DNA of 64,000 nucleotides, taken from NCBI GenBank assembly GCA_017303895.1, contig JAFLBF010000007.1, forward strand, positions 1 to 64,000. Direction: 5' to 3'. A program made the position numbers and the translations under genes. The notes below the pieces were generated by a model, which was given only the letters and a program-made list of their open reading frames with translations, was not told the DNA's origin and ran no database searches. Of the stretch, positions 32,637 to 35,393 are shown piece after piece (position 1 is the stretch's first letter; each line of letters begins with the position of its first letter). The DNA is from Bacteroidota bacterium (GTDB lineage: Bacteria > Bacteroidota > Bacteroidia > 2-12-FULL-35-15).

Positions 32637-33745
32637 TTTTGTTTTTGATGGATCAAGCTTAACACTTCATTCGCGATCACTTGTGCCGAATCTTTAAATG
32701 CCAGTTTCCCTATGTTGTCGGATAACTTTGTACAAAGTGCTTCGTCCTTTATTAGTTTTAAAGCTTCCTCCTGTAATTTCGTTCTTGCTTCGTTGTCTTT
32801 TATCAATAATGCGGCATTGTATGTAACCAATGCCATCGCATTTTTCGTTTGATGATCTTCTGCTACATTTGGCGAAGGTATCAGGATACAAGGTTTTTTT
32901 ACCAGACAAAGTTCTGATATAGAACTTGCACCCGCTCTTGAGATCACCATATCTGCTACAGCATAGGCGTAATCCATTTTTTGAATAAAATCAAATGCCT
33001 TTATTCCTTTGTTCTCATAATTCTTTGTTGCGCTTTTCGCTGTTTCAAAATATCCTTTTCCTGTTTGCCATATCAATTGAATATCGTTTTGTGAAAATGA
33101 CTCGATGCAGCTTGCAATACTTTCATTGATGGTACGTGCGCCAAGACTTCCACCAATAACCAGGATCGTTTTTTTGTTTTTATCGATCCCAAAAAATTCT
33201 GCACCTCTGTCGCGTTTTCCCTCTAAGCTCAGAATATCCTGACGTACCGGGTTTCCTGTTAGTATGATCTTTTCTTTTGGAAAATATTTTTCCATTCCAT
33301 TATAAGCCACACAGATCTTATCTACTTTTTTTGAAAGGATCTTATTGGTAATTCCGGGATATGAATTCTGCTCTTGAATAAGCGTTACAATCCCTTTTTC
33401 GGCAGCTACCTGTAACATCGGTCCGCTCGCAAATCCTCCTGTACCAATAGCTGCATCAGCTTTGAACTCACGGATGAGTTTTTTGGCTTTCATGATACTG
33501 CTGATCAATTTAAAAGGGAAGGCCAAATTTGAAAGCGTTAACTTTCTTTGAAATCCGCTGATCCAAAGTCCTTCGATCTTATAACCTGCAGCTGGCACTT
33601 TCTCCATTTCCATTTTTCCTTCTGCTCCTACAAAAAGAAACTCCGTGTCGGAACGAATTGCTTTTATAGCATTCGCTATTGCAATTGCAGGAAATATGTG
33701 GCCACCTGTACCACCACCACTAACGATAATTTTAAGCGGTTTCAT
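32633..33745 (-). CDS. murG: UDP-GlcNAc:lipid I GlcNAc-transferase
   Basis: A 370-residue GT28 glycosyltransferase converting lipid I to lipid II at the inner face of the membrane. It starts with IIVSGGGTGGHIFPAIAIA, including the first G-loop; the second loop is VIGGSLGARTINE and the UDP-binding region RAGASSISELCLVKKPCILI is intact. Starts inside the ftsW 3' end (14-nt overlap) and overlaps murC by 4 nt, showing tight coupling. Confidence 0.98.
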   Translation of the reverse strand: MKPLKIIVSGGGTGGHIFPAIAIANAIKAIRSDTEFLFVGAEGKMEMEKVPAAGYKIEGLWISGFQRKLTLSNLAFPFKLISSIMKAKKLIREFKADAAIGTGGFASGPMLQVAAEKGIVTLIQEQNSYPGITNKILSKKVDKICVAYNGMEKYFPKEKIILTGNPVRQDILSLEGKRDRGAEFFGIDKNKKTILVIGGSLGARTINESIASCIESFSQNDIQLIWQTGKGYFETAKSATKNYENKGIKAFDFIQKMDYAYAVADMVISRAGASSISELCLVKKPCILIPSPNVAEDHQTKNAMALVTYNAALLIKDNEARTKLQEEALKLIKDEALCTKLSDNIGKLAFKDSAQVIANEVLSLIHQKQK

Positions 33746-34883
33746 TTTCTTCTCCTTTCTCTTCGTTTTCTGTTTCTCTACTTACACTTAATATCATCCC
33801 CAATGCAATGCTGGTAAACCAGATGGATGTTCCTCCCATACTGATCAGTGGTAAAGGCTGACCTGTAACAGGGAATAAATTGACTGCAACAGCCATATTG
33901 ATCATAGCTTGAAATACCAGACTGAATGTTAACCCTACAGCCAATAAACTTCCGAAGGTCCGTTCACTTTTGTTGGCGATTCTGATACCTCTAAATAGTA
34001 AAACAAGATATAAGAATACGATGAGTACGGCTGAGATGAGCCCCCACTCTTCAATTACAATTGCATAGATAAAATCGGATGAAGCCTGAGGTAAAAAATT
34101 TCGTTGAATACTGTTTCCCGGACCTTTTCCGATCACACCACCTGTTGCAATAGCGATCTTTGCCTGTTCTGCTTGAAAGTTACTTTCACTATCCCCTTTT
34201 GAGAAATTTTCTATCCTTGCTTTCCAGGTAGCACCACGAGGAATGGCATTCGGAAAATTCCAGATGATCAATAATACCAATCCTAATACAATGATCCCCG
34301 AACCAATAAGTATCCATAAATGTTTTGCATTCATTCGACCAATGAACATCAATACAAAACAATTCAGAAATAACATAGCAGCTGTAGAGAAGTTGGCCGG
34401 AAAGATCAATACACAGATGATCCCAATTGGAATGATAATAGGGACAAATGCTTGTTTGAAATCTTTGATCACATCCTGTTTGATCGATAGCATACGGGCA
34501 ACATAGGTGATTAATGCCAGTTTTGCAAAATCGGATGTTTGGAATGTTAATGATGTGCCGGGTATCGCTAACCATCTGCTGGCTTCACCCGCACTAACAC
34601 CTTTAAACAAAGTGTAGAGTAGGAGTGGAGCTGCTAAAAAGATCGCTATTTGTGAGATCCTTGAAAAATAGGTGTATTTCACTTTGTGTATCAAATACAT
34701 CAAGAATACCCCCGATCCCATAATGAAGATATGTTTGATCAGGTAAGATGCTGTATCACCTTCTTTATAGCGATAGGCTAGGGCTACAACAGCGCTGTAC
34801 ACCACCAAAATAGATAATAGAGACAATAGTAGAACCACTGTCCAGATCACCTTATCCCCTTTTATGTATTTAAATAAATTCAA
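33732..34883 (-). CDS. ftsW: SEDS-family glycosyltransferase FtsW
   Basis: A 383-residue polytopic protein with about ten hydrophobic segments; it polymerises septal glycan with FtsI. The family features GRAxR-like RWLAIPG, FQTSDFAKLALITYVAR and the loop with the catalytic aspartate near QASSDFIYAIVIEEWGLI are present. The C-terminal GMGGTS-like PLISMGGTSIWFTSIALGM is typical. It sits 3 nt after the MurD-like small gene and overlaps murG. Confidence 0.95.
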   Translation of the reverse strand: MNLFKYIKGDKVIWTVVLLLSLLSILVVYSAVVALAYRYKEGDTASYLIKHIFIMGSGVFLMYLIHKVKYTYFSRISQIAIFLAAPLLLYTLFKGVSAGEASRWLAIPGTSLTFQTSDFAKLALITYVARMLSIKQDVIKDFKQAFVPIIIPIGIICVLIFPANFSTAAMLFLNCFVLMFIGRMNAKHLWILIGSGIIVLGLVLLIIWNFPNAIPRGATWKARIENFSKGDSESNFQAEQAKIAIATGGVIGKGPGNSIQRNFLPQASSDFIYAIVIEEWGLISAVLIVFLYLVLLFRGIRIANKSERTFGSLLAVGLTFSLVFQAMINMAVAVNLFPVTGQPLPLISMGGTSIWFTSIALGMILSVSRETENEEKGEENETA

Positions 34884-34886
34884 TGT

Positions 34887-35393
34887 TTATGATAATAATT
34901 TTACTGCTCCTTTAAACTCGTTCCCTCTTTTTTTGTAGTTGTCAAATTCATTGTTTTGTGCGCAGGCAGGAGAGAACAACACAACATCTCCCGATTGAGC
35001 ATAAATACTACTTATTAAGACAGCTTCTGAAATGCAGGATGCCATTGCAAACAACATATTGTGTCGGGAATAATGCTGTAAAACAGCATTTGGATATTTA
35101 CCCAAATAAACAATGGCAACTACTTTTTCCTTTATTTGACGTGCAAGTAATGAATAATCATTGTCAGCATCCTGACCACCTAAAATAAGAACAACCGAAG
35201 TCTCGATCGCTTCTAATGAATTTCTGGTAGCAGTGATACGGATCGATTTAGAATCATTGACATAGGAAATGCCATTGATCTCATCAACAAATTCCATTTG
35301 ATGATCATCTTCCGATGCACGAACACGGTCGCGTGAAAGTAGAGATCGATCCAGTTTTGAATGATAGTTCTTTATTTTAGAATTTTCTTGCAT
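34887..35393 (-). CDS. Free-standing MurD C-terminal-domain paralogue
   Basis: A 168-residue protein aligning along residues ~29-168 with the C-terminal third of the neighbouring MurD: DDHQMEFVDEINGISYVNDS against IDHRLEVVGNVHGIEFINDS, then LILGGQDADNDYS and VVLFSPACAQNNEFDNY. It has no UDP-binding domain and no P-loop, so it cannot be a ligase alone. At positions that contact D-Glu in E. coli MurD (Thr321, Lys348, Ser415) it has Ile51, Ala76 and Gln146; Lys49 of NDSK and Phe150 are kept. The first ~25 residues are basic and unmatched. It lies between murD and ftsW, co-oriented and tightly spaced. A regulatory or scaffold role is a guess. Confidence 0.85.
   Translation of the reverse strand: MQENSKIKNYHSKLDRSLLSRDRVRASEDDHQMEFVDEINGISYVNDSKSIRITATRNSLEAIETSVVLILGGQDADNDYSLLARQIKEKVVAIVYLGKYPNAVLQHYSRHNMLFAMASCISEAVLISSIYAQSGDVVLFSPACAQNNEFDNYKKRGNEFKGAVKLLS

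Follow-up and report, generated by a model that had tools for sequence, protein, structure and literature searches.

What does a gene that encodes only the C-terminal domain of a Mur ligase do in the middle of the dcw cluster? The window (the whole stretch of DNA that was analyzed, 64,000 nucleotides [nt] from a Bacteroidota bacterium) holds such a gene, here called mini, in the order murE-mraY-murD-mini-ftsW-murG-murC. Its reading frame starts with ATG, is intact, and encodes 168 amino acids (aa); 31 nt separate it from the murD stop codon and 3 nt from the ftsW start. A sequence-only reading had described a 168-residue gene at the murD-ftsW junction that matches the C-terminal third of MurD, and BLASTP agreed: residues 30 to 167 align without gaps to residues 308 to 445 of the adjacent MurD (41% identity over 138 aa, E = 5e-33). 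In Pfam, Mur_ligase_C (PF02875) scored 28.8 bits against a cut-off of 28.4 and was the sole match above cut-off. The NCBIfam murD model (TIGR01087) matched over its positions 305 to 440 with 121.8 bits, under the cut-off of 211.95. As that reading had also said, the protein (168 aa in all) has no P-loop and no UDP-MurNAc domain: Pfam found no match in it to Mur_ligase_M (PF08245), the central ATP-binding domain that carries the P-loop, or to MurD_N, the UDP-MurNAc-binding domain. Its head of about 25 residues, described as basic and as lying outside the alignment, has 7 K/R versus 3 D/E in residues 1 to 25. mini is a real gene that encodes the C domain alone, with no catalytic domain. A search of the rest of the window's genome found no second copy.

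Table 1. Positions of mini, its domains and its dcw neighbors in the window, and of a ligase fusion in a genome without canonical murD
Feature	Position	Strand	Remarks
mini, stand-alone MurD C-terminal-domain gene	34887..35393	(-)	168 aa plus stop
mini, Mur ligase C-terminal domain, residues 30-167	34893..35306	(-)	BLASTP to MurD 308-445, Pfam PF02875, AlphaFold model, structure matches
mini, basic head, residues 1-25	35319..35393	(-)	Low confidence in model; length and sequence vary between families
murD, complete, 445 aa	35425..36762	(-)	All ligase domains and substrate residues present
ftsW, 383 aa, TTG start	33732..34883	(-)	Begins 3 nt past mini
mraY, 423 aa	36766..38037	(-)	Constant neighbor of mini in other families without murD
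murG, 370 aa	32633..33745	(-)	dcw cluster member
MurL-like/MurD2-like fusion (G323)	L215:2270-4921	(-)	Similar long frames in L224, L228, L229, L231, L233

The AlphaFold model of the window's mini has a mean pLDDT of 80; the head is of low confidence and the remainder is a MurD-type C domain. Solved MurDs were the top Foldseek matches (E about 1e-12), and they compare with the model at Z values of 17 to 22, mostly with 136 to 145 residues aligned at 2.0 to 2.7 Å. A divergent copy from family f73, discussed below, was likewise modeled with the MurD C-domain fold. Apart from these, almost every structural hit was again a Mur-type ligase; with lower scores came plastid RNA polymerase chains, which we take to be the MurE-like subunit and which give a precedent for a Mur-type fold inside an unrelated complex.

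The murD-ftsW junction of related genomes had been proposed as the place to look for the same gene, and it was found there in 14 of 36 genomes from the same genus, with 55% to 72% identity. In a sample of the class Bacteroidia, 83 of 395 genomes, from about 20 of 78 families, had at least two matches, a count in which not every second match was inspected and in which one case (G271) was a murD split over contigs. All of the linked copies that were extracted lie in the order murD-mini-ftsW (mraY-mini-ftsW in the families without canonical murD). Of 118 genomes drawn from the phylum, the 89 that belong to other classes yielded no mini. The named carriers are mostly environmental metagenome-assembled genomes (MAGs), and one is labeled Sediminibacterium (L105). 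Members of the family are about 155 to 240 aa long, lie between murD (or mraY) and ftsW, consist of the C domain only, and group apart from MurDs; the window's mini fits this description. As judged from sequence, then, these genes form an ancient family of stand-alone MurD C domains at the murD-ftsW junction, present within the survey in Bacteroidia only. The earlier worry that mini might be a single-genome duplication artifact is excluded by the approximately 20 Bacteroidia families that carry it. Absence from close relatives, which had also been named as a point against the gene, does not hold: relatives carry it, and many others lack it through repeated loss. In the open-licence literature we found no description of a truncated, stand-alone, or paralogous MurD domain protein.

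One genome of family f75 (G358, L214:2034-3138) has two tandem small MurD C-domain genes between murD and ftsW. Intact extra copies unlinked to the cluster occur in family f4 (L208:6262-6819 and L209:5605-6156) and in G076 (L211:5874-6491). The neighbors of the f4 copies are conserved between the two genomes and include a LEA_2-domain protein; this protein is near unlinked copies in one family only, and the neighbors of the unlinked copies showed no common pathway. A contig labeled Candidatus Nomurabacteria has a 190-aa MurD C-domain frame (L146:5908-6477) with no MurD found beside it; the contig could be misbinned or the frame could be a frameshifted murD.

In trees of the C domain, which rest on about 140 columns, most of the small proteins are separate from the MurDs. 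A topology in which the genus copies derive by recent duplication from the MurD of the same genomes was rejected (p-AU 0.0012), whereas one origin for all small proteins was not (p-AU 0.55). After families were added, the tree with a single origin had the highest likelihood in the comparison (p-AU 0.83). A recent duplication in one genome or lineage is thus ruled out by the AU test (P = 0.001) and by the survey of the class, and one ancient origin fits the alignments best. The proposal that mini arose by duplication of the 3' part of murD therefore stands as to the 3' origin and falls as to a local, recent event, the family being class-wide and ancient. Within the genus, mini shows vertical inheritance.

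Codon models for 14 genomes of the genus indicate that mini is under purifying selection: omega was 0.065 for mini versus 0.010 for the matching MurD domain, and the median pairwise dN/dS values were 0.107 and 0.023, respectively; synonymous sites are near saturation, so the absolute values of omega are rough. A ratio near 1, which the sequence-only reading would have taken as evidence against its proposal, is far from this value. Its view that mini is not a decaying fragment is upheld by the same omega, by the conserved position, and by the intact frames.

A tree of the genus built from murD plus ftsW places the losses of mini in two clades, one with seven sampled species and the other with nine, and in the pair G019/G010. 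Most simply, mini was ancestral in the genus and has been lost about three times. G019 retains a 37-codon open piece of the 3' end (L037:1620-1730), and the murD-ftsW gap of G010 (L025) has decayed similarity to this remnant, as judged by eye; these traces show loss by deletion and decay. A search for MurD or FtsW changes tied to the loss gave one column versus 0.1 expected, which is not convincing, and MreB, which none of the 36 genus members lacks, is not a correlate of mini. With some three losses inside a single genus and no compensating change found, mini is dispensable.

The contacts to ATP and D-Glu, numbered as in Escherichia coli MurD from MurD structures, are altered in the window's mini: R302 is Gln (Gln32), T321 is Ile (I51), K348 is Ala (A76), and S415 is Gln (Q146); K319 (K49) and F419 (Phe150) are kept, and F422 is Tyr (Tyr153). 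The earlier assignments of Ile51, Ala76, Gln146, and Lys49 were right, and the loss of R302 is a further change absent from them. Phe150, which had been equated with F422, aligns with F419. The statement that the MurD next door keeps all of these sites is true of the substrate residues and not of F422, which is Tyr in Bacteroidia MurDs, including the one adjoining mini. Across 79 MurDs, R302, K319, A320, T321, and S415 are invariant and K348 varies once. The 55 small proteins examined are less uniform: 19 retain R302, 31 retain K319, and 25 retain T321, and position 348 is occupied by K, R, S, D, N, A, or other residues. H301, E304, P411, G426, and F429 are retained in nearly all of them, and we infer that these residues hold the fold. 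Thus, among the 55 proteins the ATP and D-Glu contacts vary freely while fold residues are conserved. The exception is family f12, whose copies keep every substrate residue. An altered D-Glu site is a property of the window's protein and only in part of the family, in which S415 is kept in 42 of 55. The change at S415 is confined to a few species; since 9 of the 14 carriers in the genus still have Ser, Gln in the window's mini is a late change. At positions 348, 414, and 416, some small proteins have Arg, Pro, and Tyr or Phe, respectively, where the window's mini has Ala, Ala, and Asn, and the residue alignment identified no other invariant pocket. The f12 small protein (L022, L077, L080, L085, L089) is closer to a typical Bacteroidia MurD than is the C domain of its own full-length MurD.

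Profile searches found no canonical MurD in families f73, f100, and f102. A distant MurD-like ligase is encoded at another place in these genomes. In most cases from f73 it forms a single polypeptide of about 885 to 920 aa with a MurL-like region at the N terminus; the fusion in G323 (884 aa) scored 288 bits with the NCBIfam murD model and 258 bits with MurL, below the latter's cut-off of 700. A route in which MurD2 is an L-Glu ligase and MurL an epimerase is known from Xanthomonas, and Bacteroidota are not listed among its carriers in a review (PMC8788868). The f73-type ligase with its MurL-like region reads as this route, with putative use of L-Glu. The dcw order in the three families is mraY-mini-ftsW-murG, followed by murC where it was read. 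Most of the MurD signature residues are gone from the f73-type copies, and omega for the f73 mini was 0.092. These copies group with the small proteins and not with MurDs, which disfavors their being leftovers of a murD truncated in place, although the AU test does not reject a placement with MurDs (p-AU 0.16 to 0.21). On the simplest reading of these genomes, murD departed and mini stayed. This reading speaks against MurD as an obligate partner and in favor of a function alongside MraY, MurG, FtsW, or other Mur ligases.

We therefore weighed what mini might do. It could regulate MurD only: by competing with the enzyme's own C domain for the N-terminal and central domains, or by taking its place there, it would tune the addition of D-Glu. 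Its derivation from MurD, its place beside murD in most carriers, and the intact substrate residues of the f12 copies are consistent with this; however, R302, K319, and T321, which face the active site, are not kept, and mini persists in f73, f100, and f102, unless it acts there on MurD2. We consider this reading unlikely, and MurD is unlikely to be an essential partner. Rossmann-like domains commonly bind ligands, and mini could instead bind another small molecule (an amino acid, a nucleotide, or a muropeptide) and signal precursor status. Here the copies with Arg 348, Pro 414, and Tyr/Phe 416 recall the L-Glu ligase MurD2 (PMC8788868), but these positions vary greatly from one copy to the next (348 can be A, S, D, N, K, or R, and the window has Ala76 and Gln146), and a different invariant pocket did not emerge. 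This makes a sensor doubtful, a little more so than a regulator of MurD.

Improbable is a role as a second half-enzyme that lends its C domain in trans to a Mur ligase, making an alternative ligase: the C domains of intact Mur enzymes do close over the substrate, and the f12 copies look competent, but catalytic residues that this would require are lost in most copies, and the genomes examined all encode a ligase that is complete with a C domain. Least probable of all is that mini is a nonfunctional leftover, retained at its site because translation of murD and ftsW is coupled. Tight spacing, about three losses in the genus, and the remnants in G019 and G010 would fit, but the protein-level constraint (omega 0.065 and 0.092) refutes its strong form, frames are intact in dozens of genomes from about 20 families, and unlinked copies are intact as well.

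mini probably has its own job in cell-wall building. The reading that we prefer, with a probability of roughly 45%, is that it is a noncatalytic Mur-fold accessory protein that docks on the late precursor machinery. As a pseudo-ligase domain, it would use the surface of a Mur C domain to dock on a component of the dcw-encoded cytoplasmic lipid II machinery (MraY, MurG, FtsW, or another Mur ligase being the candidates) and would either regulate precursor supply or serve it as an adaptor; as a speculation, the flexible basic head may touch the membrane or the partner. We favor docking because mini has the same position in every linked case, is under purifying selection, and most likely has a single old origin, and because contacts vary while fold residues are kept, the predicted fold is that of a MurD C domain, and mini persists between mraY and ftsW without canonical murD. 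Against this reading, mini is dispensable in the genus, the f12 copies keep all substrate residues, which is unlike a pseudo-ligase, and operon inertia could explain part of the conserved position. More tentatively, mini may be an undescribed nonenzymatic Mur-fold protein, widespread in the class, that is dedicated to lipid II synthesis at the MraY/MurG/FtsW step and works independently of MurD, and that for this reason survived in three families when MurD2-MurL took over from murD. The earlier suggestion of recruitment away from catalysis agrees with the missing catalytic domain and the varying contacts. Of the examples given with it, a nucleotide or muropeptide is now a less likely ligand, since those contacts are the ones that vary freely, and modulation of a Mur ligase is retained except for MurD as the sole target, since families without canonical murD keep mini.

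Few bacterial gene sets have been studied as well as the dcw cluster and the Mur ligases, yet a conserved extra protein encoded within the cluster in many Bacteroidia families appears to be unnamed. If mini is an adaptor, the long-debated cytoplasmic Mur complex becomes testable with natural variants, namely, species with and without mini in one genus and families that retain mini without murD.

Compared with MurD, mini is the same domain by sequence and predicted fold, encoded next door, but it lacks the UDP-binding and ATP-binding domains, is about one-third as long, and in the window is altered at four substrate contacts (R302, T321, K348, and S415). Some small proteins share Arg 348, Pro 414, and the aromatic residue at 416 with MurD2, but mini falls apart from MurD2 in the tree, lacks a catalytic domain, and in the window has A, A, and N at these positions; in the f73-type genomes the MurD2-like ligase is the Glu-adding enzyme present. 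MurT, in the GatD/MurT complex, also places a Mur-type C domain in a protein complex and matches mini in structure (Z about 12), but it is longer and has an ATP-binding middle domain, whereas mini is closest to MurD and is encoded in the dcw cluster. The literature would support docking in a general way: Mur enzymes bind MraY, MurG, and MreB, and a scaffolding role for the Mur ligases has been proposed for MurG and MreB (PMC4929429, PMC6420597). Although the scaffolds in the proposed MurG-MraY-Mur ligase complexes are MurG and MreB and no stand-alone C domain is described there, an adaptor such as mini could fit into them (PMC6420597, PMC4929429).
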